Below are positions 49,209 through 64,000 of a stretch of DNA of 64,000 bases, in pieces. Numbering within the stretch: position 1 is the first letter of the stretch; each line of letters begins with the position of its first letter. The position numbers and the translations under genes are program-made. The notes below the pieces were generated by a model. That model saw nothing but the letters and a program-made list of their open reading frames with translations. It was not told the origin of the DNA and searched no databases. Origin of the DNA: Chryseobacterium aquifrigidense (GTDB taxonomy: Bacteria > Bacteroidota > Bacteroidia > Flavobacteriales > Weeksellaceae); assembly GCF_006716485.1 (NCBI RefSeq), contig NZ_VFPD01000001.1, forward strand, positions 2,129,463 to 2,193,462, given 5' to 3'.

Positions 49209-50633
49209 TCAATCTCCCATCCGGTAGACAAGTAATTGGGTAGAATATGCGGTCAGGCTCATCCCTGCTCCTGCACAGTTGCCCGATTGGCCTCTTCCAA
49301 GAGTTATAGTCCATGTTCTGTTAGCAGGAACCGTGGTAGCATAGGTTATGGTACTTCCGTGATTGGAAACAACTCCTTCAATGTGTGAAGCTGTACTATG
49401 AATTCTGGTACTGCCTGTATTAAGAGGAAAATCTACAAAGTATGAGCTGATAGTACATCCTGTCGCATTATGTAATGCTTCATATACAAAGGTCATCTGA
49501 TAAGTCCCTGCCGGAAAAGTAATGGTACTTGTTGCTGCATTAAAGCTCATTCCGGGAATGGTATTTTTAACCAAAGACATAGGAACCACCTGTCTTTCAC
49601 CTATAGCTTGTGTCTGCAAGAAATTTAATTGTGGAGTTTCCAGCCTGAAAATTGCAGCGCTTGGAATCATAGATAAGGAACCCAATGCACCAATTCTTTT
49701 AACAACGCCAGTAGCATCAACAACCATCAGGGAATCTGTAGAGGTATTTCCCGCAGAAAGCCCTTGTAATCTTAATGGATTGGTTCCGTTGACATGAAGT
49801 TTATGGGTAGGAGCAGATGTTCCTATTCCGACTCTGCCTGAATTACTACTCGTAAGGAACATAAGTTCATTAAGTTCATTTCCTACACTAAATGATAAAT
49901 ACTTTCCGGAGCCTGCTGTTGTTACATTATTATCCCCAAAATTAATCCTCGCAACCGGGCCTGTACCAACGGTTGATCTGGAAGCGATATTAATTCCAAA
50001 ATTATCGGTCCTGTTACCATAACTATAACCGTTCTGGCCAATATTAATATCAAGTGCATTTTTTGTTGAACTGACCGTCCTTGCAGCATTGAGAATAGAA
50101 CTACCCTCTACATGCAGTTTTACTTCAGGCGCCGTTGTTCCTACCCCCAATCTGTCATTGGCAGCATCTACTGATAAGGTAGATCCATCTACAGAAAAAG
50201 CATTTACTGCATTTCCGGTAAAGGCTAGTGTATTCGCTCCCTGGGTGACAGTACGGTTGGCTTCTAAACTTCCATCCGCTGTATAAATGCTTTTATCCAC
50301 AAATTTGCTGGTATCTGCGCTTAATCTTATCCAAACACTTCCATTAAAGTAATAATAACCTACGTTGTCGATATTTACTGCATTACCGGACTGGCTTCCG
50401 GTGCTGACTTCATTTACATAGATCATCGTAGAAAGAGCAACTCCAGTCATTGACTGCGCTCTCTCCCTGTTTACCTGAGGGATCAGAAGACCCTCAGGGG
50501 ATGTTGTAGTACCTGTAGGAATTTTGGCACTGATATCCAGCGTTGCCTTTGGAGAAGAAGTGTTAATCCCTAGCTGAGAAAAGGTGATTCCGGAAATCAA
50601 TAATGCTGATACAATTGTTATTTTTTTTTTCAT
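49209..50633 (-). CDS. Secreted fibre-like protein, 474 aa
   Basis: Signal peptide (ALLISGITFSQ), then the motif LGINTSSPKATLDISAK found in many Bacteroidota surface proteins, followed by tail-fibre-like repeats (NDRLGVGTTAPEVKLHVEG, SGRVGIGTSAPTHKLHVNG) and a C-terminal jelly-roll-like beta domain (MSFNAATSTITFPAGTYQMT, YEALHNATGCTISSYFVDFP). No T9SS sorting domain. The repeat type resembles phage tail fibres and surface adhesins, so a binding or structural role at the cell surface is likely. Its neighbours are two transposase-derived HTH proteins. Confidence 0.75.
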   Translation of the reverse strand: MKKKITIVSALLISGITFSQLGINTSSPKATLDISAKIPTGTTTSPEGLLIPQVNRERAQSMTGVALSTMIYVNEVSTGSQSGNAVNIDNVGYYYFNGSVWIRLSADTSKFVDKSIYTADGSLEANRTVTQGANTLAFTGNAVNAFSVDGSTLSVDAANDRLGVGTTAPEVKLHVEGSSILNAARTVSSTKNALDINIGQNGYSYGNRTDNFGINIASRSTVGTGPVARINFGDNNVTTAGSGKYLSFSVGNELNELMFLTSSNSGRVGIGTSAPTHKLHVNGTNPLRLQGLSAGNTSTDSLMVVDATGVVKRIGALGSLSMIPSAAIFRLETPQLNFLQTQAIGERQVVPMSLVKNTIPGMSFNAATSTITFPAGTYQMTFVYEALHNATGCTISSYFVDFPLNTGSTRIHSTASHIEGVVSNHGSTITYATTVPANRTWTITLGRGQSGNCAGAGMSLTAYSTQLLVYRMGD

Positions 50634-50663
50634 TTTGCTTTGTTTTAAATCGTATTTTGGATA

Positions 50664-50993
50664 TTATTTTGCTAAATCCTTTCTCCATTTAGACAGCGTA
50701 TTCCTACTCATTTTAAAGTGTTTGGATGTTTGGCTGAGGTTAAGATTATTTCTGTTCTGATATTCTATGATATACTCTACTGTTTCCTTATCGTAAGATC
50801 TGAACTTACTATTCTTTTTATGGGGAGAAGGCTGTTCATTTCCAAATATCATCGTATTGAGGAGAATAACCTCTCTGGTCGTCAGTTTATGCTTCTGAAG
50901 AAGATTTTTACATTTTTCTTCCTTTTCAGGATATTTTATCTTGATGATATCCTGGTAAATTGCTATATAGTTAGGCGATATTTCATTTTTCAT
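50664..50993 (-). CDS. Transposase-derived HTH protein, 109 aa
   Basis: The N-terminal half is helical and basic. The C-terminal half is a Psq/IS3 OrfA-like HTH: FRSYDKETVEYIIEYQNRNN followed by LSQTSKHFKMSRNTLSKWRK. No DDE catalytic domain follows, so it is not a complete transposase; it is probably a DNA-binding protein of its own. 63 bases downstream of a second HTH gene of similar design (51057-51488) and 31 bases upstream of the fibre-like gene. Confidence 0.7.
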   Translation of the reverse strand: MKNEISPNYIAIYQDIIKIKYPEKEEKCKNLLQKHKLTTREVILLNTMIFGNEQPSPHKKNSKFRSYDKETVEYIIEYQNRNNLNLSQTSKHFKMSRNTLSKWRKDLAK

Positions 50994-51056
50994 ATACGTA
51001 ATTTCTGTTACTAATTATTTTATCCGAAGTGGATTACTGTATAGATTCCTGAAATC

Positions 51057-51488
51057 TCACTTAGGGTTGTATTTACTAAGCCATTTGTAAAGAGTTGTTT
51101 TAGGGATTCTGTATCTGCTCATGACCTCACTTTTATTCATTGCTCCTGTATTGATCTGATCTATCACAAAAGAAATAAGCTCTTTTGTATAAATATGCTT
51201 TCTGAACATGGGTAGTGAAGTAGATACTGGTTCATTTTTTTTCTCACCTCCTTCTGGTGGCGAATACAATATAAGATGCTGAGTATATAACCTGAAAAAA
51301 TCATAACTTAACAGTTTACTCCATTTAAGAAGCAATTCTGTACATAAATCCTGCTTCTTATACATTTCCTCAACTTCTTCCTGAGAACATCTGAAAAAGT
51401 TACATATCCGTACATTATCCATATCACATTCCTGTACTCTTTTTGCTATAAACTCTCCAATACGGATATCTTTAAAATCTGTTTTCAT
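51057..51488 (-). CDS. Transposase-like HTH protein of a Chryseobacterium multicopy family
   Basis: 143 residues from ATG 51486-51488; an upstream ATG (51512) is possible, but relatives begin with MKxDFKDI. It has a conserved N-terminal part (DFKDIRIGEFIAKRVQECDM, NVRICNFFRCSQEEVEEMYK, LLLKWSKLLSYDFFRLYTQH-LILY) that resembles an XRE-type helical domain and a C-terminal IS3 OrfA-like HTH (FRKHIYTKELISFVIDQINT, SRYRIPKTTLYKWLSKY). This family is abundant in Chryseobacterium and often annotated transposase, yet it lacks a nuclease domain. Probably a regulator. Confidence 0.75.
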   Translation of the reverse strand: MKTDFKDIRIGEFIAKRVQECDMDNVRICNFFRCSQEEVEEMYKKQDLCTELLLKWSKLLSYDFFRLYTQHLILYSPPEGGEKKNEPVSTSLPMFRKHIYTKELISFVIDQINTGAMNKSEVMSRYRIPKTTLYKWLSKYNPK

Positions 51489-51948
51489 AAGGTATTTAAA
51501 TCTTAGTTTCATGCTTAGCTAGAAATAGAGGTATTATTTCTTTGGTTTTCCCATATGAATATCTGTTATAATTTTATCGGAAGAATAAAGGTAAAAATCA
51601 GTATATCAGATATCCTTATTACTAAAGACAAAGGTATAGTGATCTTGCAGAAACTATACAGAAATACCTTTTACAATTCGTGAATACTAACAGTATAAAA
51701 CCATCTTCAAACAACTGATTTAAAACAACATAACATCAAAATTTGATTTACACTAAATGTATTTTAATAGGGATAAAAATGAAGGATATTTTTAAATTTT
51801 AAGGTCTATTTTTGGACCAAAAAACCAATACATAATAAAAGTGACGCCTTATTATTTGGTGATTAAAAAAAACCTATCAGAATTTGAAACTCTGACAGGT
51901 TAAATAAATTTTAATTCGTAATAGTAAATAAAGCACTATTTTCAATAC
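51489..51948. other. Intergenic region, terminator near its right end
   Basis: 460 bases, A+T-rich. Contains the terminator at 51871-51901. No gene-like frame, promoter box with good spacing, or repeat was recognised in the rest. Confidence 0.4.
51871..51901 (-). terminator. Terminator of the TPR-AraC regulator
   Basis: 11-bp stem with one A-C pair that becomes G-U in the minus-strand RNA (AACCTATCAGA / TCTGACAGGTT), then a T-rich tract on the minus strand (plus-strand A run at 51865-51872). Confidence 0.75.
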
Positions 51949-54274: not shown

Positions 54275-54919
54275 CTACTGATTATACAGTCTGAGGATTT
54301 CCACCAGTTCGGGTATGGATCGTATTTTCAGCTTCTCAAACAACCTGATTTTGTAAGTACTGATCGTGGATGAATGGAGATTCAGCTGATTAGAAATTTC
54401 TTTGAGGGGAAGACCTTCTGCAAGTTTATTGGCAATTTGCAATTCGCGGTCTGACAGCGCTTCAAAGGGAGAACTTTTGGGTGTGCCATTTAGTGATTCT
54501 AAAAAAATAGCTTCTTTTATATTATCACTGATATATCGGCCTTTAGTGAGCATCGCCGTTAAAGCAGTCTCAATCACTTCCGTGGAGCTTAGCTTGCTGA
54601 GATAGCCGCCAGCACCCATTTTCAGATAACGCATCCCATACAATTCTTCATCCTGCGAAGAAAATATAAGAGTTTTTAATGCAGGCTGGTGAATTTTTAT
54701 GTAATCTATTGCTTCCTGAACAGTACCATTAGGCATATTAACGTCCATAATGGCCAGATCAAATTCTTCGTTCAGAATTAATTTATAAAGCGATTTATAA
54801 TCTTCTACTTCTGAAATGATGGCATCGGGTCTGAATCGTTTAATTGTCTGTATCAAACCCATCCGGACGATACCATGATCGTCTGCTACAACAATGCGAA
54901 TGTTTACTTTTAAACCCAT
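54275..54919 (-). CDS. LuxR/NarL-family response regulator (next to the fibre operon)
   Basis: 214 residues. Receiver with Asp13/Asp14 (VVADDHGIV), phospho-acceptor Asp59 (LAIMDVNMPNG), SSQDEELYG switch region and Lys in GGYLSKLSS. LuxR HTH at about 152-205 (LSDRELQIANKLAEGLPLKE, ISNQLNLHSSTISTYKIRLF). Its ATG overlaps the last base of the histidine kinase stop, so the pair is coupled. Being next to the chaperone/usher-like operon, it is the best candidate regulator of the subunit promoters; that is inference. Confidence 0.92.
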   Translation of the reverse strand: MGLKVNIRIVVADDHGIVRMGLIQTIKRFRPDAIISEVEDYKSLYKLILNEEFDLAIMDVNMPNGTVQEAIDYIKIHQPALKTLIFSSQDEELYGMRYLKMGAGGYLSKLSSTEVIETALTAMLTKGRYISDNIKEAIFLESLNGTPKSSPFEALSDRELQIANKLAEGLPLKEISNQLNLHSSTISTYKIRLFEKLKIRSIPELVEILRLYNQ

Positions 54920-55653
54920 TATTCTATAAATTTATGTAAAAAAAGGGAAACCGTAGTGCCTTTATTTTCAGCGGAAATGATTTGGATGTTTCCATACAGC
55001 AAGGATATAAAATTTTTTACAATTTTCAAACTTAATCCCACGCCTTTCTCACCTGCAGTTCCCAGGAATACGGGATTATCATAATTGTAGATCGTAGGTA
55101 AATACTTTTCATGTATTCCTGTTCCGGAATCAATTACAGAAAGCACAACCTGATCACCTTCTGTAATCGCCTGTAAATAAACATCCTGACCATCAAATGA
55201 ATATTTTACCGCATTGTTAAAAATTTTGTCTAAAACATATTCCAGCAGCAGGCGATCACTTGTAAGAGATGCATTGTGATCTCCTTTATAATAAAAGTTA
55301 ATATTTTTTTCCTTTAATTTAGCAGCGTATTTTTCTTCCAGATAGTGAAAAAGATCCATCACTATTATTTTAACAGGTTTGATCTGAAATTCCCCGTATT
55401 GTGTTTTTAGCCAGGCAACGCTATCCTGAATAGTTTGCAGATTCTTTTGGGTATCACGTTTTACCTGTGGCAATAACTTAAAAAAATCTTCCTCACTTAA
55501 AGTCTTTTGCTCCAGCTCTTCTGTAAGCCAAAGAAAGGTTCCAAACAATTCTTTTGAGTCATGAGACAATATTGAAATCAGTCCGTTCTTGAAATTGATT
55601 TCATTTTCCAGTTTTTCGATTTTTAATTGGAGCTCGTTGATAAGATCATTCAT
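54919..55653 (-). CDS. Soluble sensor histidine kinase
   Basis: 244 residues without signal peptide or transmembrane helix. A short coiled coil (INELQLKIEKLENEIN), H-box LISILSHDSKELFGTFLWLT with His31, a dimerisation helix pair, then the HATPase domain: N-box LLEYVLDKIFNNAVKYSF, G1 VIDSGTGIHEKYL and G2 AGEKGVGLSLKIVKNFISLL. Compact kinases of this kind take the signal from a partner or the cytosol. It shares one base with the response regulator downstream. Confidence 0.9.
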   Translation of the reverse strand: MNDLINELQLKIEKLENEINFKNGLISILSHDSKELFGTFLWLTEELEQKTLSEEDFFKLLPQVKRDTQKNLQTIQDSVAWLKTQYGEFQIKPVKIIVMDLFHYLEEKYAAKLKEKNINFYYKGDHNASLTSDRLLLEYVLDKIFNNAVKYSFDGQDVYLQAITEGDQVVLSVIDSGTGIHEKYLPTIYNYDNPVFLGTAGEKGVGLSLKIVKNFISLLYGNIQIISAENKGTTVSLFLHKFIE

Positions 55654-55810
55654 AAATTAAGTATCACGGTTTAGAAGCTGTTTGAATTATTTTTTTTGAA
55701 AGAAAGCAGAAGGGTTATATTGTTTAAATGTGAATAAAAACATCCGTTTCAGGCCTTTCTTCAGGAACTGGCAAGTTAAAAAAAATATCATATTAGTTAA
55801 AAAAAAAGAA

Positions 55811-55838
55811 TGGGATTTACTTGAAATAGTAAATCCCA
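55811..55838. terminator. Hairpin between the fibre operon and the histidine kinase
   Basis: Perfect 11-bp stem, 6-base loop, with an A run on its left and ATATTTTAT on its right; it may end transcription from either side. Confidence 0.55.
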
Positions 55839-56070
55839 TATTTTATCTTACTAAAATCCACATTGCATAAACGGCAAAGTTGAAATTCATGAAAAGCGCT
55901 GAATTGTTGAGAAAGTTATCTGCTGGACTCTTAATACCAGAAGACGTTCCAAAGATTATGAAAGAAAAAACGAAAATGCCAGTGTTTATATTCTTGTACC
56001 AAATATCAGAAGATTAACTAATAAAATTTTAATTCAAACAGCTTGAATTTTTCTCATGCAGTTAATTTGA

Positions 56071-56110
56071 TAATATCGTGCTGATCAGTCGATTGATCAG
56101 CACGATATTA
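56071..56110. terminator. Perfect 17-bp hairpin at the end of the fibre operon
   Basis: TAATATCGTGCTGATCA pairs perfectly with TGATCAGCACGATATTA around a 6-base loop. No long T run follows on either strand. It lies 26 bases beyond the stop of the adhesin gene, with a second hairpin between. Confidence 0.7.
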
Positions 56111-56111
56111 A

Positions 56112-56134
56112 AATGCTCTATAAGGAAGAGCATT
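56112..56134 (-). terminator. Second hairpin directly after the adhesin stop codon
   Basis: 8-bp stem (AATGCTCT/AGAGCATT) with a 7-base loop, ending next to the stop codon at 56136-56138. With the 17-bp hairpin it makes a tandem stem-loop end. Confidence 0.6.
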
Positions 56135-56135
56135 G

Positions 56136-57569
56136 TTAAATTGCCGTAAAGCTATAATAAACATTGATGGAGTAAGTAGTATTTTCCTTACCAACCAAAC
56201 TTTGGCCACTCTCAGGTGATATGGTATATCTTATATTCAGTCCCCGGTCCAAAACCGGTGCTCCGTTAAAGAGTATTTTTTGAGGCGTTTTGGATAAGGG
56301 TGCACTTACAGAACTTCCATCCACACCAATTTGTAATATGTTGGAATTGATGCTGGTCTGCAGCCCCCCTTTCTTGAAATAATTTTCATCCGATTTTACA
56401 TAGAGCTCAAAATTTTCATTATTGGACAACATAATCTGGTTGGGAATCATTTGTGACTGACCTTCGGTGTACTGGGCAGCGGTATTAAAATTAAAGTTGA
56501 CGTTGCGTCCGGAACTGGGAATGGTGATCTCAGACAGAGGAAGCACCTTTAACTGAACGGCTGTATTTTGCAAACTGTTAATTGAATTATCTGTACTTCT
56601 GGCATTGAAGTTCAATTCAAAAGTATATGTTCCGGCTTCAAAAAAGAAGTTTTTAAAATCTTCCGCAGACACATAAAGCTGAGGAATGAAGCTGTTTCTG
56701 TTTCCTGCTGCAACACTGAAATTAGCAGCGGAAAAATTCTGAAAATCGGAAGATAAGGCTTTGGTGGTGAGTGCCGATCCGTTACTGCCTAATTTAATGC
56801 TTGCTATATTTCTGGTTCCCGGAACACCTTTAGAGGAGGTAAACTGAATGTTTGTGCCAGCAGCTTTCGCCCAAAAATTAAAATCAACCGTATTTGCGAT
56901 TTCCGTGTTTCCCAAATCCCACAACCGCGTGCTTGTACTGCGGTAATCATTCAGAGAAGATATTTCTATGTATTTTGTTAAGGAGTTTGCGACCCATCGT
57001 ATAGATGAAGGAATAACTAAAATTGTTTTAAAATTATGTGGTGTGAAATCATTATAATTCTGAGTGATATCCATGGAGTAATTTCCGGCCCGGAAGGCAT
57101 TGGCAGTAAATTGTGAGGCAGGAATTTTAAATGTAAAATTGATATTTCCGCGGTTAAATCCTCCCGCGAGACTGATTGATGGCGGTTCAAACCATTTTAT
57201 AGCGCTTGTACTGAACGACTGAAACCCTGGCAAATAACCTGAAAGTCCGGTATATGGCAGCTGCCCGCCCATACTTTCCAACTGCCACAGAAGAGTGGAA
57301 CCGGGTAAGGTAAGTGAGGAAGAAGAGTGAGTAAAATTTGGTCCGGAAACAGAGGTAAAGGTAGGAGCTGTTGGGAGTAATCCCAAAAAGGCATAATCCC
57401 AGTTGGTTCTGTTGGCGTTCGTCATTACTCTTGTAGGCACTGAAGTAAATTCGGTCCTGTTAAAAATATTATTATCGGGAACTGACAGGTAGATATCCTG
57501 AGCTTGCGTAGCTGCAGCCCCGCAGAACACGGTAAAAATTCCTACTAGAAAAACCCTCATCTTTTTCAT
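56136..57569 (-). CDS. Secreted adhesin-like protein of the fibre operon
   Basis: 477 residues. Signal peptide (MKKMRVFLVGIFTVFCGAAA, cut near TQAQ). The rest is made of several beta-sandwich-like segments whose ends share a pattern with the subunits: FRAGNYSMDITQNY, FEAGTYTFELNFNAR and the C-terminal NTTYSINVYYSFTAI, compare GTYTQTVTYTATAL in the subunits. It is larger than the subunits and encoded once, as fimbrial tip adhesins are. It starts 10 bases after the stop of the usher-like gene. It may be the tip or receptor-binding protein. Family not recognised; tip role is inference. Confidence 0.75.
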   Translation of the reverse strand: MKKMRVFLVGIFTVFCGAAATQAQDIYLSVPDNNIFNRTEFTSVPTRVMTNANRTNWDYAFLGLLPTAPTFTSVSGPNFTHSSSSLTLPGSTLLWQLESMGGQLPYTGLSGYLPGFQSFSTSAIKWFEPPSISLAGGFNRGNINFTFKIPASQFTANAFRAGNYSMDITQNYNDFTPHNFKTILVIPSSIRWVANSLTKYIEISSLNDYRSTSTRLWDLGNTEIANTVDFNFWAKAAGTNIQFTSSKGVPGTRNIASIKLGSNGSALTTKALSSDFQNFSAANFSVAAGNRNSFIPQLYVSAEDFKNFFFEAGTYTFELNFNARSTDNSINSLQNTAVQLKVLPLSEITIPSSGRNVNFNFNTAAQYTEGQSQMIPNQIMLSNNENFELYVKSDENYFKKGGLQTSINSNILQIGVDGSSVSAPLSKTPQKILFNGAPVLDRGLNIRYTISPESGQSLVGKENTTYSINVYYSFTAI

Positions 57570-57579
57570 ACTTTTAAAT

Positions 57580-60384
57580 TTAAAACTTTTTCACCTTAAT
57601 GGTAGTGTCTTTCTTCTTGTATTCAAAAACCACGGTTTTTGAATACCCTTCTTTTGTCACCTGAATCGTTTGGGTAGGTTGTGTATAGCTGTATTTGTCA
57701 TTTTCAATATAGAGGTTGTATTTCCCATCTTTCAGGAAAAACTCAAACTCATTTTTTTGGTTAACCACAGCAGTATAGATGGCACCATCTTCACCTTTTG
57801 CATACACTACTATTCCGGTTACATCTGTTTCCAAAACATCGTAAGCCTGTTTGATCTCTGTTAATTTTCCACTTACTCTGATATTTTTTACCAGGCCTAC
57901 TTTACGGTTAATATTGTTATGTACCATAATCAAAGGATCCATCATCAACCGGGCACCCGCACTTTCGTTCACTTTCAGGGTGTATGTACCTTCAGGCACA
58001 TTCTGAAAAACTACTTTTCCATTCTTATCCGTCATTGCTACATAATTGTCCAGCTTGACGATTTCATTAGCAAGTACCGGTTCACCGGATTCCAAAAGTC
58101 CATTGAAATTTTTATCTTCAAAGAACTGGAAAGCCACTTTATGATTTCCGAGAGCCGTAGCTGTGGTAAAATATTTTTTAATTCCCACTCTGTACTGGTA
58201 ATAGCTGCCACTGGTTGAATATTCAGCCGTAGATTTATAACCGGAAAGATTAAAATAACCTGTGGTGGACCAGGAAGACGAGATCTTATATTCCAGATTA
58301 CCGGTGATATTGCTGTTTAAATTCTTATAAAGTTCCGAATAGAAGGTTCCGGCTGAAAAAGATCCGGTCAGATTATGATTAAGCATCTGGAAATTATACG
58401 AAGCGTATACATTATAGTTGGCGAAATCACGGTTTACATCATAATAAGAATTTAAATCAAAAACACTGGTTGCGTTCCATTGCGCTGTTCCGTTGAGGGA
58501 GAATGACTTATATCTGTAAGACAGGGTTGTTTTCAAACTGTTGAACCAGTCCGGTTTATTGTTCTCTTTTGAATAAGAATATTCCGCCGTAAGGTTCAAT
58601 CCATGGGCACCTAATGTAGTGCTGATATTGGCTTCCAACCTATATGAAAAAAGTTCCTGTGAGGTGTAAAAACTAGCTGTTTTCTGCTTTTCAACCTTAG
58701 GAGACAGGAGAAAATTCCACTTCTTTAAAGAAAACTGGTAACCTATTCCCAAAGCTTCTGTACTGTTGAAATAATAACGCAAATTTGAGGTGTTCCCAGG
58801 TTGGATTGGCTCACTCTGGAAACTCAGGAATTCAGGTTCTACCTGCGAATTCTGATATTGTATAAAAGCGCGCTGAGCACCAGAAAACTGGCGGCCGATC
58901 CTCTGATTTGAGAAAAAGGATCCCCGTTTGATCCCTGCATAGCTTTTGGTGGCAAAAGAGTTAACAGATTGTATATCCCATTTCCCTATTTTCCCCTCGT
59001 AATTAGCTCCCATTGAAGCTCCTGCGTTTTCATCTCTGTTCACAAGGCCTTTTTCATGGCTCAGGCCAACCTCCGTGCGAATTGCATGTTTATCACTGAT
59101 TAACAATGATGTTACCGCGTTCGCTACCTGCGTATCTACGTTAAAGCGTGGATCATGGTCGAATAGATAGGACACTTTCCCATTGAAAGATTTAGCATTT
59201 CCAAAAGCATATTTTCCACCCGCTATGGTAGATCCTTCTGTTTGCTGGAAATAAGTACCGTACAGATTATAATTATTTTCCAGTGCAAGAATTTCAATCT
59301 GATTATTTTCACCAAATTTGGTAGAAACTTTCCCTCCTCTTCCGAAAACCGGGTAATCGTAATCGCTGCTGTTAACATTTCCCAAGCGTAAAACCGTATT
59401 TTTTCTCTCCAGTTCCAGCCAGGTATCATACAGGTTATAACGGCCGTCTTCAACATAGTAATCTGCTCCGATATTGAAGTGCGATTTCAAATTCTCAGAC
59501 ACCCGAAATGCTGTATTTCCCCTTAATTGAAGATAATTGAAACCTGAACTGTTTTCGTTGTAGCTCATTTCCGCAAAATTACTTCCGCTCACCGCTTCGT
59601 TTCCTCTGGCCATTTGTCTGTTATGCGATAAAATGACTAAGTAGAGCGTGTTGCTTCCCACAATTTTATTATCAAGCAGATCTGTGACGATTGCATTAAT
59701 ATTAAATTCCGGATAAAGTGTATTCTGTTTTCTGACTGCAATTTTGATCTCAACCGTTTGTTTTTCTAAACCTTCCAGAGATAAAGTTTGCTGCTTTGGT
59801 AAAATTTCCAGGCCATCAGGAATAGATTGCAGATCAATCCTGACAGTTCGTTTACTATAGCCCTGGTTTTCTACAGTCAGCAGAATTGAGGATTGAGGCA
59901 AAGCGGGGTTAATGAAATTTTCGTAGTTGGCCGTATAAATTGCGATGTTTTTGTTCTCGCCTTTAGCAACTAAGAATGAGGCGCTTTCAGTTCTGGTAAC
60001 TGTCGGGGTAGCGTACGAAACCTGGAATTTGATCTCATTGGATCTCAGTTTCATAAAATCCACGTTGGCAATCAACTTCACAGGAAGATTTTTAGACTGC
60101 CCCGCACTTAAGGTAAAGTCATTTTTGGGATAGAAAAGCAATCCCGGATATTTTTCCTGAGGTATGATATTCTGAATGATAATCTCTTCAGAACTTTTAT
60201 TCTCAATGACCAGGAAATTAGTAAAAGTAGAACCTTTCTCAACAGCAACACTGTCGTTTTCAAAATGGATCTGAATATCCTTCCTTTCCTGTGCAAAAGC
60301 CCACGAAAACTGCAGAAGAACAAGTACAAAACATAAGATTGTTCTTCTTAGCACTGATATCGATATTCCATTCTGTGGTTTCAA
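57580..60384 (-). CDS. Usher-like outer-membrane barrel with Ig and SdrB-like domains
   Basis: 934 residues. The start is TTG 60382-60384 or GTG 60352-60354; no ATG is available. Signal peptide (LVLLQFSWAFAQ). Residues about 30-250 form two immunoglobulin-like domains (IENKSSEEIIIQNIIPQEKY, ILLTVENQGYSKRTVRIDLQ). About 265-740 alternate like a large outer-membrane barrel (FNYLQLRGNTAFRVSENLKS, LRYYFNSTEALGIGYQFSLK). The C-terminal part has an SdrD B/carboxypeptidase-regulatory-like domain (FFEDKNFNGLLESGEPVL, GKVVFQNVPEGTYTLKVN) and a last small beta-domain. This resembles the design of ushers of the alternate chaperone pathway. It follows the chaperone gene by 9 bases. Confidence 0.78.
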   Translation of the reverse strand: MKPQNGISISVLRRTILCFVLVLLQFSWAFAQERKDIQIHFENDSVAVEKGSTFTNFLVIENKSSEEIIIQNIIPQEKYPGLLFYPKNDFTLSAGQSKNLPVKLIANVDFMKLRSNEIKFQVSYATPTVTRTESASFLVAKGENKNIAIYTANYENFINPALPQSSILLTVENQGYSKRTVRIDLQSIPDGLEILPKQQTLSLEGLEKQTVEIKIAVRKQNTLYPEFNINAIVTDLLDNKIVGSNTLYLVILSHNRQMARGNEAVSGSNFAEMSYNENSSGFNYLQLRGNTAFRVSENLKSHFNIGADYYVEDGRYNLYDTWLELERKNTVLRLGNVNSSDYDYPVFGRGGKVSTKFGENNQIEILALENNYNLYGTYFQQTEGSTIAGGKYAFGNAKSFNGKVSYLFDHDPRFNVDTQVANAVTSLLISDKHAIRTEVGLSHEKGLVNRDENAGASMGANYEGKIGKWDIQSVNSFATKSYAGIKRGSFFSNQRIGRQFSGAQRAFIQYQNSQVEPEFLSFQSEPIQPGNTSNLRYYFNSTEALGIGYQFSLKKWNFLLSPKVEKQKTASFYTSQELFSYRLEANISTTLGAHGLNLTAEYSYSKENNKPDWFNSLKTTLSYRYKSFSLNGTAQWNATSVFDLNSYYDVNRDFANYNVYASYNFQMLNHNLTGSFSAGTFYSELYKNLNSNITGNLEYKISSSWSTTGYFNLSGYKSTAEYSTSGSYYQYRVGIKKYFTTATALGNHKVAFQFFEDKNFNGLLESGEPVLANEIVKLDNYVAMTDKNGKVVFQNVPEGTYTLKVNESAGARLMMDPLIMVHNNINRKVGLVKNIRVSGKLTEIKQAYDVLETDVTGIVVYAKGEDGAIYTAVVNQKNEFEFFLKDGKYNLYIENDKYSYTQPTQTIQVTKEGYSKTVVFEYKKKDTTIKVKKF

Positions 60385-60393
60385 AGCTTAATT

Positions 60394-61194
60394 TTAAAAT
60401 TTAAAGTTTTTTTCTCCTACACGTAAATCATTGGATTCTGCCATTTTGATAATAACTACACCAAGAAAGTTCCCTGAAATGTTCTCTGGTAAAGAAAACT
60501 GAACAACCTGATTGGTATCCGGAAGCATAGAGATGGAAATAGCGGGTAATTTTATTTCCTTACCACTGTCTGTATTGGTAAGTTCAAACTCAACGGTGGC
60601 ATCGTTGATGGTGTTTCCATCATTATGGATACTTACTGCCACTTTTCTGTTCGCTGCATTCTCACTTTTCACTTCTGAAATATTGGTAATATCCAGACTT
60701 TTCACATGGTTTCCCGGTGGAGTATAAAAGATGTGAAGCCCTACCTCAAATAAGGTGATAATACCAATACCATTCTGAATACGTGCCTTATCTGCCTGCT
60801 GAGGAAGTTGGGTGAAAAACAACATGCTGTTCGTAACGGCAGACGGTGATGCATTTGCCGGAATCTGCATGGTTACTACAATCTCTTTTGTACTTTTTGC
60901 AGGAACTGTTACAGCGTTTTCTAAGGTGGATACCCAGGAAGCGTTGGAAGTTTTTGAACTGCCTGCTTCAAGATAAACCTTATTTCCGTCTTCTTCTCTA
61001 ACCCAGTCTTTGTAATTGAGATTAAAAACATAATCCTTATCCGAGCTGTTTTGAAGCGTGACTGTCTTTGTTACTTTTTCTCCCGGATTACCTGTAAAAA
61101 ACAAGCGCGTAGGCGACATAGAGATACTTTGTGCCAGAAGTGAAGAAGATCCTGTGAGGATAAAGAAAATGAAAAGGTGAATAAACTTGTGCAT
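60394..61194 (-). CDS. PapD-like periplasmic chaperone
   Basis: 266 residues. Signal peptide (ILTGSSSLLAQ). Two-domain PapD/immunoglobulin fold: SISMSPTRLFFTGNPGEKVT, VTLQNSSDKDYVFNLNYKDW, a long edge strand with VTVPAKSTKEIVVTMQIPAN (fitting the chaperone G1 strand region) and SAVTNSMLFFTQLPQQ, then a second domain (RKVAVSIHNDGNTINDATVE, SMLPDTNQVVQFSLPENISG). It would cap fibre subunits by donor-strand complementation and hand them to the usher-like barrel encoded next. It lies 80 bases downstream of a subunit gene. Confidence 0.85.
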   Translation of the reverse strand: MHKFIHLFIFFILTGSSSLLAQSISMSPTRLFFTGNPGEKVTKTVTLQNSSDKDYVFNLNYKDWVREEDGNKVYLEAGSSKTSNASWVSTLENAVTVPAKSTKEIVVTMQIPANASPSAVTNSMLFFTQLPQQADKARIQNGIGIITLFEVGLHIFYTPPGNHVKSLDITNISEVKSENAANRKVAVSIHNDGNTINDATVEFELTNTDSGKEIKLPAISISMLPDTNQVVQFSLPENISGNFLGVVIIKMAESNDLRVGEKNFKF

Positions 61195-61223
61195 GGTGTA
61201 AATAGTTTAATGATAAAGATTCC

Positions 61224-61231
61224 CAAAACTA
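61224..61231 (-). promoter_or_regulatory. Possible -7 box of the chaperone-usher-adhesin unit
   Basis: Reads TAGTTTTG on the minus strand, 30 bases before the chaperone start. No TTG at the proper -33 distance; the unit may also be read through from the subunit gene upstream. Confidence 0.3.
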
Positions 61232-61274
61232 CTGAAAACATAGCAAAAGGAACCTTTACAAACTAAAATTTTTA

Positions 61275-61820
61275 TTATAAAGCAGTCGCAGTATACGTTA
61301 CTGTTTGAGTATAAGTTCCGGCCGGTTTACCTAAAATATCAGAAGATGAGGATTTTGCCGCTGGAATAGTGTAGTCCAGGTTCAATGTTAATGCACTTCC
61401 AAGAGGAGCATTGGATACCAAAGTCTGATCCGTTGCAGATAAAACTACTGCGCTTTTTGTTCCGCCCATGGTTCCGGCAGCGGTAGCGGCTTTGATCGTC
61501 AGAACATTGACAGGGATTAAGTTGGTTCCATTCATAAAATTAGCACCTCCTGCTTTTACTTTAACATTAAAGTTCTTTGTAGAAGTAACTTTCAAAGAGT
61601 TGGCTTTGGTAATCGTCTGATCAGAGTTGTAGTCTGCTGCAGTAACATAGTTAAAATCTACCGTATTACCAATAGCTGTACTTCCTGCATCGATAGAGAT
61701 CACATCATTCAGGGTGATGTTTACCGTTGTAGTTGCGGTTGTATTTTGAGCTTGAACATTGTTAGTTCCAAATATGATTGCTCCAAAAGTTAAGGCTGTG
61801 ATTACGATTTGTTTTTTCAT
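61275..61820 (-). CDS. Fibre subunit-like secreted protein, copy D
   Basis: 181 residues. Signal peptide (cut near VQAQ), then an alternating hydrophobic N-terminal strand (TTTVNITLNDVISIDAG, candidate donor strand), a beta-sandwich (ITKANSLKVTSTKNFNVKVK, VVLSATDQTLVSNAP, ALTLNLDYTIPAAK) and a C-terminal strand GTYTQTVTYTATAL. Small size, N-terminal strand and tandem copies beside a PapD-like chaperone point to a major pilin-like subunit; general design resembles DUF4402-type subunits, but I cannot assign a family. It differs from copies A and B in the mature part mainly by one Ala/Val change. It has its own promoter module. Confidence 0.8.
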   Translation of the reverse strand: MKKQIVITALTFGAIIFGTNNVQAQNTTATTTVNITLNDVISIDAGSTAIGNTVDFNYVTAADYNSDQTITKANSLKVTSTKNFNVKVKAGGANFMNGTNLIPVNVLTIKAATAAGTMGGTKSAVVLSATDQTLVSNAPLGSALTLNLDYTIPAAKSSSSDILGKPAGTYTQTVTYTATAL

Positions 61821-61873
61821 GATGATAATATTTTATTGTTATTTTTTACTTAATTGTTCTCTTTTGTATACTG

Positions 61874-61881
61874 CAAATTTA
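61874..61881 (-). promoter_or_regulatory. -7 box of subunit copy D
   Basis: Reads TAAATTTG on the minus strand, 54 bases from the start codon, the same distance as in copy B (63233-63240). No TTG at -33. Confidence 0.6.
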
Positions 61882-61902
61882 TAGTGGTGGCAAAAGTTTC
61901 TT

Positions 61903-61942
61903 TGTAGTGGAAAAAGGAAGTTCATGTAGTAAAATCACTACA
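61903..61942 (-). promoter_or_regulatory. Putative operator of subunit copy D
   Basis: One TGTAGTG (61903-61909) in the -35 region and an inverted repeat TGTAGT-N6-ACTACA (61925-61942) further upstream. The same arrangement and spacing occur upstream of copy B (63262-63301). Confidence 0.55.
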
Positions 61943-61970
61943 CTGCTTATTCATTTGATAAATAGAAAAA

Positions 61971-61996
61971 CCCTCAGCACTTCCAGGTACTGAGGG
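61971..61996 (-). terminator. Terminator of subunit copy C
   Basis: CCCTCAG/CTGAGGG stem followed on the minus strand by a T run, 25 bases beyond the stop at 62022. Confidence 0.75.
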
Positions 61997-62021
61997 CAGA
62001 TATATTGATGTGTTTTTTTTA

Positions 62022-62567
62022 TTATAAAGCAGTTGCAGTATAAGTAACTGTTTGTGTATAAATTCCGGCTGGTTTACCTAAAATATCAGATGATGATGAT
62101 TTTGCCGCTGGAATGGTGTAATCCAGATTCAGTGTCAATACACTTCCAAGAGGAGCATTGGATACTAAGGTTCTTTCTCCTGGAGATAAAACCACTTCGT
62201 TTTTGATTCCGCCCATATTTCCGGGAGCTTCTGCAGCTTTGATTATCAAAACATCTACAGGAATTGAGTTTGAACCATTAACGAAATGCGGTCCTCCTGC
62301 TTTTACCCTTACATTAAAATTCTTCGTTGAGGTAATTTTTAAAGAGTTGGCTTTGGTAATTGTCTGATCAGAGTTATAGTCTGCTGCAGTAACATAGTTA
62401 AAGGCAACTATCCCCCCAATTGCTGTACTTCCTGCATCGATAGAGATCACATCGTTAAGGGTAATGTTAACAGCTGTGGTTGCGGCTGTATTTTGAGCTT
62501 GAACATTATTAGTTCCCAATATAACTACCCAAAAAGTTAAGGCTGTGATGGCGATTTGTTTTGTCAT
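62022..62567 (-). CDS. Fibre subunit-like secreted protein, copy C (diverged)
   Basis: 181 residues, same layout as copies A, B and D, but with many substitutions: GGIVAFNY for GNTVDFNY, KAGGPHFVNGSNSIPVDVLI, KNEVVLSPGERTLVSNAP and GIYTQTVTYTATAL. It differs at more than 20 positions while the other copies are nearly identical to one another. The -7 box (62620-62627) keeps the same distance to the start, but the upstream operator is missing because the stop of copy B is only 66 bases away. It may be a minor or variant subunit. Confidence 0.8.
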   Translation of the reverse strand: MTKQIAITALTFWVVILGTNNVQAQNTAATTAVNITLNDVISIDAGSTAIGGIVAFNYVTAADYNSDQTITKANSLKITSTKNFNVRVKAGGPHFVNGSNSIPVDVLIIKAAEAPGNMGGIKNEVVLSPGERTLVSNAPLGSVLTLNLDYTIPAAKSSSSDILGKPAGIYTQTVTYTATAL

Positions 62568-62619
62568 GGCAGTAAGATTTAATTATTATTCTTGTTTAAT
62601 GGTTCTCTTTTGAACCTTA

Positions 62620-62627
62620 CAAATCTA
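62620..62627 (-). promoter_or_regulatory. -7 box of subunit copy C
   Basis: Reads TAGATTTG on the minus strand, 53 bases before the start, between copies B and C. Confidence 0.5.
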
Positions 62628-62633
62628 CAGCTG

Positions 62634-63179
62634 CTACAAAGCTGTTGCAGTATAAGTTACTGTTTGAGTATAAGTTCCGGCAGGCTTACCTAAAATATCA
62701 GAAGATGAAGATTTTGCTGCTGGAATAGTGTAGTCCAGGTTCAATGTTAATGCACTTCCAAGAGGAGCATTGGATACCAAAGTCTGATCCGTTGCAGATA
62801 AAACTACTGCGCTTTTTGTTCCACCCATTGTTCCGGCAGCGGTAGCAGCTTTAATCGTCAGAACATTGACAGGGATTAAGTTCGTTCCATTCATAAAATT
62901 AGCACCTCCTGCTTTTACTTTAACATTAAAGTTCTTTGTAGAAGTAACTTTCAAAGAGTTGGCTTTAGTAATCGTCTGATCAGAGTTGTAGTCGGCTGCA
63001 GTAGCATAATTAAAATCTACCGTATTACCAATAGCTGTACTTCCTGCATCGATAGAGATCACATCATTCAGGGTGATGTTTACCGTTGTAGTTGCGGTTG
63101 TATTTTGAGCTTGAACACTGTTAGTTCCTAATATGATTGCTCCAAAAGTTAAGGCTGAGATTACGATTTGTTTTGTCAT
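62634..63179 (-). CDS. Fibre subunit-like secreted protein, copy B
   Basis: 181 residues. Signal peptide, donor-strand-like TTTVNITLNDVISIDAG, beta-sandwich and C-terminal GTYTQTVTYTATAL. The mature part is identical in sequence to the visible part of copy A from VISIDAG onward, and differs from D mainly by Ala instead of Val in NYATAADYN. Its upstream module (-7 box, TGTAGTG, palindrome) is shared with copy D. Function as for copy D. Confidence 0.82.
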   Translation of the reverse strand: MTKQIVISALTFGAIILGTNSVQAQNTTATTTVNITLNDVISIDAGSTAIGNTVDFNYATAADYNSDQTITKANSLKVTSTKNFNVKVKAGGANFMNGTNLIPVNVLTIKAATAAGTMGGTKSAVVLSATDQTLVSNAPLGSALTLNLDYTIPAAKSSSSDILGKPAGTYTQTVTYTATAL

Positions 63180-63232
63180 GGCAGTAATATTTTATTGTTA
63201 TTTTTTATTTAATTGTTCTCTTTTGTATACTG

Positions 63233-63240
63233 CAAATTTA
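63233..63240 (-). promoter_or_regulatory. -7 box of subunit copy B
   Basis: Reads TAAATTTG on the minus strand, 54 bases from the start codon. Confidence 0.6.
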
Positions 63241-63261
63241 TAATGGTGCTAACAGTTTCTT

Positions 63262-63301
63262 TGTAGTGAAAAAAGGAAGTTCATGTAGTAAAATCACTAC
63301 A
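63262..63301 (-). promoter_or_regulatory. Putative operator of subunit copy B
   Basis: TGTAGTG at 63262-63268 and the inverted repeat TGTAGT-N6-ACTACA at 63284-63301; same design as at 61903-61942. Confidence 0.55.
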
Positions 63302-63331
63302 TGGTTTATCATTTTGACTTAAATAATAAAG

Positions 63332-63357
63332 CCCTCAACACTTTCTAAGTATGAGGG
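63332..63357 (-). terminator. Hairpin upstream of copy B, paralogue of the copy C terminator
   Basis: CCCTCA/TGAGGG stem, A-rich on its left side, so a T run follows on the minus strand. Confidence 0.6.
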
Positions 63358-63438
63358 TAGATTCTACCTTACAGCTGACAGATACTTATTCCCGGATTTT
63401 GAATTTTTATCTATATCGGTACAATACATACAAAATCA

Positions 63439-63460
63439 AAGGCCTCCCTGAGGAAGCCTT
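63439..63460 (-). terminator. Hairpin after subunit copy A
   Basis: 9-bp stem with one mismatch (AAGGCCTCC/GGAAGCCTT), loop CTGA, 42 bases beyond the stop at 63503. Confidence 0.6.
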
Positions 63461-63502
63461 CGAAACACCAAATCACAAAATATTAATATGAAAAAAGTTA
63501 AC

Positions 63503-64000
63503 TTATAAAGCTGTTGCAGTATAAGTTACTGTTTGAGTATAAGTTCCGGCAGGCTTACCTAAAATATCAGAAGATGAAGATTTTGCTGCTGGAATAGTGT
63601 AGTCCAGGTTCAATGTTAGTGCACTTCCAAGAGGAGCATTGGATACTAAAGTCTGATCCGTTGCAGATAAAACTACTGCGCTTTTTGTTCCACCCATGGT
63701 TCCGGCAGCGGTAGCGGCTTTAATCGTCAGAACATTGACAGGAATTAAGTTCGTTCCATTCATAAAATTAGCACCTCCTGCTTTTACTTTAACATTAAAG
63801 TTCTTTGTAGAAGTAACTTTCAAAGAGTTGGCTTTAGTAATCGTCTGATCAGAGTTGTAGTCGGCTGCAGTAGCATAATTAAAATCTACCGTATTACCAA
63901 TAGCTGTACTTCCTGCGTCGATAGAGATCACATCATTCAGGGTGATGTTTACCGTTGTAGTTGCGGTTGTATTTTGAGCTTGAACATTGTTAGTTCCAAA
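63503..64000 (-). CDS. Fibre subunit-like secreted protein, copy A (cut by window end)
   Basis: The visible 166 codons run from GTNNVQAQNTTATTTVNITL near the end of the signal peptide to the C-terminal GTYTQTVTYTATAL. By comparison with copies B, C and D about 16 codons of the signal peptide lie beyond 64000, so the real start would be near 64048. An internal in-frame start near 63931 must not be used. The mature protein matches copy B exactly over the last ~140 residues. More copies may follow beyond the window. Confidence 0.82.
   Translation of the reverse strand, partial: FGTNNVQAQNTTATTTVNITLNDVISIDAGSTAIGNTVDFNYATAADYNSDQTITKANSLKVTSTKNFNVKVKAGGANFMNGTNLIPVNVLTIKAATAAGTMGGTKSAVVLSATDQTLVSNAPLGSALTLNLDYTIPAAKSSSSDILGKPAGTYTQTVTYTATAL

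Follow-up and report, generated by a model that had tools for sequence, protein, structure and literature searches.

Can a member of the Bacteroidota build a surface fibre with a chaperone and an usher? The question is raised by a locus near the end of a stretch of 64,000 nucleotides from Chryseobacterium aquifrigidense (contig NZ_VFPD01000001.1, positions 2,129,463 to 2,193,462; this whole stretch is called the window below), in which genes for a PapD-like chaperone, a large outer-membrane barrel, a tip adhesin-like protein and several pilin-like subunits lie side by side. In the available excerpt of PMC4654587, chaperone-usher systems are listed for the Proteobacteria, Cyanobacteria and Deinococcus-Thermus, and the Bacteroidota are not among them. 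Our literature search, with subscription papers and preprints outside its scope, gave among the matches listed no title on chaperone-usher pili in Bacteroidota.

We consider it very likely that the product of the locus is a thin adhesive fibre on the cell surface, assembled along a chaperone-usher-like route that is known here from genes and models. Such a route, with the barrel as the analogue of the usher, had been proposed in a first-pass annotation made from the sequence, and it gains computational support from the kinship of the chaperone to PapD, the domain order of the barrel, the pilin fold of the subunits and a pilin domain in the tip protein. The calculations also gave a conserved cassette, an usher-like barrel size, a free extension on the subunit fold and a kinship to the TLP-1 filament.

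The cassette and its conservation

In the core of the locus the subunits are followed by the chaperone, the barrel and the tip protein, at distances of 80, 9 and 10 nucleotides (nt) in turn, and all genes of the core lie on the reverse strand: the chaperone at 60394..61194, the barrel protein (934 residues, TTG start) at 57580..60384 and the tip protein (477 residues) at 56136..57569. The open reading frames (ORFs) and the single strand are as the first-pass annotation had described them, as are its core gaps of 9-10 bases, and its four or more small secreted beta proteins have become seven subunit genes. Three of these lie inside the window (copy 1, 61275..61820; copy 2, 62022..62567; copy 3, 62634..63179), one crosses its end (copy 4, 63503..64000, continuing to L002:10111) and three lie beyond. 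The array consists of a divergent first gene, sub0, of 180 residues and six genes of 181 residues. Copies 1 and 3-6 are 97.2-98.9% identical as proteins and 95.4-98.2% as DNA; copy 2 is divergent, with 81.8-82.3% protein identity to the other 181-residue copies.

To see how widely this arrangement occurs, we ran a pattern-plus-tblastn scan of the genome contig collection, from which 79 loci were kept of 92 relatives. They fall into type A, to which the window belongs, and type B, the barrels of which have 20-25% identity to the window barrel and in which the order is subunit - chaperone - tip - barrel. Chaperone, tip protein and subunit stand beside the barrel in 72 of the 79 loci. For type A (54 loci) the counts are 53 for the chaperone, 52 for the tip protein, 50 for the subunit and 48 for all three; for type B (25 loci) they are 25, 25, 24 and 24. 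All seven loci with a missing member are cut by a contig end. Because the cassette recurs in 79 loci, it is more than a chance neighbourhood.

Among the 98 genomes examined, the type A barrel is found at 81-94% identity in 25 other Chryseobacterium genomes, that is, in 26 of 59 when the genome of the window (5.13 Mb) is included, and in none of the 39 other genomes of the order. The nearest named orthologues of the barrel are likewise from Chryseobacterium (for example 93% in C. indologenes AA5), and all 11 type A loci that were checked share the TTG start. Named hosts of the cassette include Chryseobacterium, Kaistella, Flavobacterium, Weeksella, Mesonia, Sinomicrobium and Paenimyroides, together with several metagenome-assembled genomes. 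A single type B copy (L156) is found elsewhere in the same genome as the window.

A wider survey with the chaperone profile found matches at E <= 1e-6 in at least 25 of 395 Bacteroidota genomes, at 33 or more places; it scored up to six candidates per genome, and these counts may be a lower bound. Of 33 places, 20 were examined and 17 had a chaperone ORF, 15 of these with an ORF of at least 880 residues within three genes; 12 of the 15 match the barrel profile. At L165, L166 and L167 ORF calling recovered no full-length chaperone. The chaperone-like matches at L170 and L171 were not counted as systems, since there is no large barrel within three genes.

Some side observations were made on these relatives. 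The two-Ig (immunoglobulin-like) chaperone-like proteins at L170:8608-9513 and L171:8776-9636 adjoin a response regulator with a sigma-54 activator domain. The large protein next to the chaperone at L172:8851-12507 (1218 residues) has SPOR domains (89 bits), a hint that other members of the phylum may have ushers linked to peptidoglycan. Chryseobacterium has a third type of cassette as well (L174:7553-12351, genome G002), with a subunit-like gene, a chaperone that passes WxLIP_HBD, a large protein of 917 residues that the barrel profile does not match, and a second small secreted gene. In type B, an AraC-type (HTH_18) gene lies upstream in 3 of 3 loci tested, and at L042:11588-11953 and L156:8499-8960 a small ORF of 121-153 residues, with no Pfam match at E <= 0.001, stands between this gene and the subunit. 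Broken barrel ORFs are seen in Chryseobacterium sp. E1 and C. viscerum (L097 and L088); in E1 the subunit and tip ORFs are short as well, so that a sequencing error is possible.

Chaperone, barrel, subunits and the TLP-1 filament

Next, we asked how the individual proteins compare with those of known pili. The chaperone has a signal peptide and two Ig-like domains. We compared its family with a profile of eight PapD-type chaperones of Escherichia coli K-12 (FimC, YehC, ElfD, YcbF, YadV, YfcS, YraI and YbgP) and obtained an hhalign Prob of 95.9 (E 6.1e-9) over 204 columns, with the arginine and lysine motifs aligned: SPPRLYF falls on the TR motif and SGIKIFH on IKLFYRP. As a control, 100 column shuffles of the K-12 profile scored at most 23.6 against 63.3 for the real one, the reversed profile scored 13.9 in the same script, and the subunit profile used instead gave a Prob of 3.2. 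All 20 rows of the chaperone alignment keep the arginine, and the lysine position has K in all 15 type B rows and H in all 5 type A rows. In the window, the arginine is Arg30 (mature Arg9; codon 61105..61107), which we equate with Arg8 of PapD, and the histidine is His154 in GLHIFY (codon 60733..60735), at what we take to be the position of PapD Lys112. A single-protein Pfam search gives no PapD_N match for the window chaperone; six of 13 family members have sub-threshold PapD_N matches (best E 0.01). Judged by the profile alignment, the chaperone is a remote relative of PapD, and the two-domain PapD-like chaperone of the first-pass annotation stands.

The barrel protein was modelled with AlphaFold2 in its mature form, using 45 sequences (mean pLDDT 81.1, pTM 0.53), and the limits of its domains were read from the strand list. 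The model has two N-terminal Ig-like domains (residues 1-225, 59617..60291), 26 strands of at least eight residues between residues 238 and 708 (58168..59580) and two C-terminal beta domains (residues 716-893, 57613..58146). The Ig and SdrB-like domains seen in the first pass do have Pfam matches, weak ones: FixG_C on the first N-terminal domain reaches 26.1 bits (cut-off 25.6), and at the C-terminal end, where CarboxypepD_reg also matches, SdrD_B reaches 21.4 (cut-off 29.7). In Foldseek the first 11 rows are FimD or PapC, with E values from 2.1e-14 (9fy9_D) to 1.5e-11 for the eleventh, followed by axonemal Ig arrays and BtuB. In the structural comparison VIA the best match, aligned over 418 residues with Z 21.1 and 4.6 Å, is the Mtr-complex chain 6r2q_B, which we take to be the 26-strand MtrB, and FimD (3ohn_A) and PapC (2vqi_B) follow with Z 16.2 and 16.0; the full-length ushers align through the C-terminal domains of the barrel protein, to residues 890-894. 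In the model, then, the size and domain order of the barrel are usher-like, while the barrel fold alone is not specific.

By sequence the barrel stands apart. We were not able to detect kinship to the K-12 usher profile (hhalign Prob 0.6) or to EcpC (Prob 5.6), and there is no Pfam PapC_N match in the window barrel; at this end the model shows the two Ig-like domains, a part that the structure comparison barely covers. No FimD or PapC sequence signature was found, just as the first-pass annotation had seen none. Classical usher barrels have 24 strands. Compared with the classical pathway (FimC/FimD, PapD/PapC), the locus thus has a related chaperone, a similar gene set and a barrel model for which FimD and PapC come first in Foldseek; on the other hand, no sequence kinship of its barrel is detectable, and the barrel model differs in having about 26 strands, Ig-like domains at the N-terminus and no plug.

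For the subunits, the mature form of copy 3 was modelled (pLDDT 92.9, pTM 0.85). Residues 1-16 (63060..63107) are without strand, and the last strand covers residues 150-156 of 157. This free extension has an alternating pattern V9-I11-L13, and we propose it, from the model and the alignments, as a candidate donor strand. VIA, which for the subunit is a second comparison of the same candidates as in Foldseek, places TLP-1a first (Z 10.0, 146 residues, 4.0 Å, 20% identity), then TLP-1b (9.5), CsuA/B (6fqa_D, 8.1, with 2.9 Å over 117 residues) and chaperone-usher pilins and adhesins from 7.7 to 6.0. Chaperone-usher proteins account for 45 of the best 50 rows listed and TLP for 2; the remaining 3 are a CEP192 domain, a cannula protein and the Hyper2 tube.

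The tip protein carries the same fold at its C-terminus: its residues 343-477 (56139..56543) match residues 14-157 of the subunit (hhalign Prob 99.1, E 9.1e-19). The match begins at subunit residue 14, and therefore the extension is absent from the tip domain. Known tip adhesins likewise lack an N-terminal extension.

For a putative fibre locus in the Bacteroidota, one may think of the type V pili of the Bacteroidales (FimA/Mfa1), in which protease-cut lipoprotein precursors are joined by strand exchange. The phylum is the same, the Porphyromonas fimbriae are donor-strand fibres as well in the excerpts available of PMC4789730 and PMC5789003, and the subunit of a remote relative (L168) weakly matches FimA-like_C (15.6 bits, under the cut-off of 27). 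The six 181-residue subunits, however, have no cysteine and so no lipobox, a dedicated chaperone and barrel are present, and neither the window subunits nor 19 type B or remote subunits match a FimA or Mfa family in Pfam. We give the type V explanation almost no chance.

The closest structural relative of the subunit, TLP-1 (9ikj and 9ikk for TLP-1a and TLP-1b), is presumably one of the filaments from pond water solved by cryo-electron microscopy. According to the excerpt of PMC12967142, the pond-water filaments of Wang et al. were not conclusively identified, and neither proteomics nor metagenomics gave a matching sequence. Sequence comparison points the same way as the fold. With single sequences of the chaperone or barrel, searches of the PDB sequences gave nothing useful, and the first subunit profile found nothing; larger profiles were needed. 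For a profile of the 19 type B and remote subunits, the best PDB sequences are 9ikk and 9ikj (E 0.0021 and 0.0023), the next being BclA with 0.14; a profile led by type A has 9ikk as its sole match with E 1.5, which is not significant alone.

A 60-residue fragment of 9ikk matches one of the 395 Bacteroidota genomes at E <= 1e-3 (G410, 42% identity), and the gene it hits encodes the subunit of locus L163, where chaperone and barrel are its neighbours. Searched against the PDB sequences at E <= 1, this subunit finds only 9ikk (4.9e-9) and 9ikj (3.1e-8), and the chaperone next to it matches the window chaperone family with E 1.1e-28. Of 245 genomes from the family to which G410 belongs, 9 have a match to the TLP-1b fragment at E <= 1e-4 (10 matches); at all nine loci a chaperone (E <= 1e-39) and an usher (E <= 2e-49) of the window family are followed by two TLP-like genes. 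The exact maker of TLP-1 was not found, because the fragment is only about 40% identical over 57 residues to these genes. While TLP-1a and TLP-1b are the best structural match of the subunit model, their chains have 236-237 residues against 157 in the mature subunit, and they are only remotely similar to the window subunits.

Comparison with known systems

Several results weigh against a chaperone-usher-like route. Profile searches with PF00345, PF00577, CooC_C and DUF4402, which the first-pass annotation had suggested as a check, give no match to any window protein at E <= 1. In the whole genome there is no Usher (PF00577) match, and the best PapD_N (PF00345) score is 13.2 bits (cut-off 23) and lies outside the locus; one control genome passes each search. 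None of the 19 type B or remote subunits matches DUF4402. The structure prediction that had also been suggested for the barrel came out usher-like in size and in its first Foldseek matches, and the inserted plug was not seen: there is no plug between the barrel strands of a model with a low pTM, and the longest gap between strands is 23 residues (485-507), mostly of low confidence. The TM-scores of the barrel model to ushers are low (0.2-0.33); in VIA the Z values of the ushers are level with those of OccK porins and of the TonB receptor BtuB, and 6r2q_B scores higher. For the subunit, TLP-1a alone among 744 Foldseek matches passes E 0.001 (9.2e-5), chaperone-usher proteins make up 24 of the best 50 of these 744 rows with mostly unrelated beta folds as the rest, and the pilin Z values of 6.0-8.1 in VIA are in the range of common arrangements, CsuA/B being tied with others within 1. 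Finally, the window chaperone has a histidine where PapD-type proteins have a lysine, and it passes the Pfam family WxLIP_PGBD instead (28.6 bits, cut-off 27.3).

The last match suggests a different function, namely anchoring as by the Gram-positive WxL and WxLIP (DUF916-DUF3324) proteins: the two-Ig protein would stabilise single beta proteins at the surface and the barrel would merely export them, with no polymer formed. WxLIP proteins share the two Ig domains, and in the available part of PMC10599100 a WxLIP strand is predicted to complete the WxL beta sandwich, a strand donation resembling that of a pilus chaperone; the words chaperone, pilus and PapD are absent from that part of the text. 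The remote chaperone at L174 passes WxLIP_HBD (36.2 bits, cut-off 28.9), and against the PDB sequences the chaperone profile matches EfmWxLIP1 (9i1y_A, E 6.5e-5) across both domains. Nevertheless, the window chaperone (266 residues) ends ...NDLRVGEKNFKF and shows by eye no hydrophobic C-terminal helix, hence no transmembrane anchor, and it belongs to a phylum with an outer membrane, where its partners are pilin-like subunits and a barrel. No WxL match in Pfam was found among the window subunits or the 19 subunits from type B and remote loci. The free N-terminal extension of the subunit, its nearest structure (the TLP-1 filament) and the subunit domain of the tip protein all speak against the anchoring of single units, and the tandem subunit genes suit a polymer. 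We therefore regard such anchoring as very improbable. The chaperones of this family and WxLIP may share a common origin.

A second question is whether the system is just a diverged ordinary member, possibly taken up from another phylum, of the archaic (sigma) chaperone-usher family. The fold of the subunit fits: Csu pilins are the first named pilin rows in VIA, with Z from 8.1 down to 7.2 and other rows lying within 1 of them, and CupE has Z 7.0. Remote members in the Bacteroidota come near the families of this pathway as well, with a subunit (L173) that reaches DUF4402 (30.7 bits, cut-off 25.2), one barrel (L169) near CooC_C (25.5, under the cut-off of 29) and a chaperone near PapD_N (18.0, cut-off 23). 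The kinship to DUF4402 and to the alternative chaperones rests on remote members and fold only, because the direct comparison of the subunit profile with the DUF4402-type subunit of L173 showed no relation (hhalign Prob 1.8) and that of the chaperone profile with EcpB was weak (Prob 2.3). On the other hand, the chaperones keep the arginine, and in type B also the lysine; in the excerpt of PMC4654587 these two basic residues are a classical trait with no analogue in archaic chaperones. The window barrel has neither an Usher nor a CooC_C match and no plug in the model, its sequence shows no kinship to the K-12 classical ushers or EcpC (CsuD was outside this comparison), and the family is varied within the Bacteroidota. 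Taken together, we find an ordinary archaic member unlikely. In sequence the chaperone-usher-like system lies outside the classical family as curated, and we propose that it may form a Bacteroidota branch of its own; a separate branch had already been considered possible in the first-pass annotation.

Regulation, proposed assembly and evolutionary place

The range of the first-pass annotation also contains a two-component pair at 54275-55653, downstream of the tip gene and on the same strand: a histidine kinase (54919..55653), of which the ATPase part is the sole kinase domain recognised by Pfam, and a LuxR-type response regulator (54275..54919). Within 6.5 kb after the tip gene, a relative of the kinase is present in 43 and the regulator in 48 of the 48 type A loci with enough flank. 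An orthologue of the regulator occurs in 26 of 26 genomes with a type A barrel and in 1 of 72 others, where genomes of the same genus are not independent. The exception (G028, L185:12639-15302) has an intact kinase-regulator pair and has lost the cassette, of which scraps of the subunit start and the tip end remain as a natural deletion scar.

Five of the six 181-residue subunit genes (all except copy 2) have the same upstream block, consisting of the palindrome GTAGTN6ACTAC and TAAATTTG. Before copy 1 the palindrome (61926..61941) lies 106-121 nt and TAAATTTG (61874..61881, reverse strand) 52-53 nt from the start codon; before copy 3 they are at 63285..63300 and 63233..63240, the latter again on the reverse strand. 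We take TAAATTTG to be a Bacteroidota -7-like promoter element, going by the consensus TAnnTTTG. An extended palindrome pattern has five sites in the genome within two mismatches, all of them at the array and all exact, against one for the backward control. In type A loci, 93 of 142 subunit genes have the palindrome within 160 nt when one mismatch is allowed; among 5000 random windows drawn from loci of both types 41 have it, and among 29 type B genes none. Terminator-like stems follow several subunit copies (19, against 3.1 in shuffles); some of these are the palindrome, which is also capable of forming a hairpin. We infer that the regulator may bind the palindrome and is a putative regulator of the cassette.

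Elsewhere in the window (49209-51512) there are a secreted protein of 474 residues and two small genes; a trio similar by eye lies directly upstream of a subunit array in L040:3412-5575.

How would the fibre be assembled? The subunits would reach the periplasm by Sec, where the two-domain chaperone would cap their incomplete Ig fold with its G1 strand, the C-terminus of the subunit being anchored near the conserved arginine and the histidine or lysine. The complex of chaperone and subunit would dock at the large barrel, and there the N-terminal extension of the next subunit would presumably displace the chaperone strand. The tip protein, with a C-terminal pilin domain that has no extension, would be exported first and the shaft of tandem-encoded subunits after it, and the neighbouring two-component system would control the cassette.

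A more general possibility, to which we give even chances, is that the Bacteroidota have a fourth chaperone-usher branch of their own, with plugless ushers of about 26 strands and chaperones linking PapD to WxLIP, and that TLP-1a and TLP-1b are its pili. If this is true, the structure of the shaft of the Bacteroidota branch has already been solved without its maker being recognised, and a filament known by structure would gain a genetic home and hence a testable kind of maker. A usher free of a plug, if it is so, raises the question of how the pore is gated. The family could be an evolutionary bridge between PapD chaperones and the Gram-positive WxLIP proteins, and chaperone-usher pilus assembly would be extended to a phylum that is absent from the list in the excerpt of PMC4654587.

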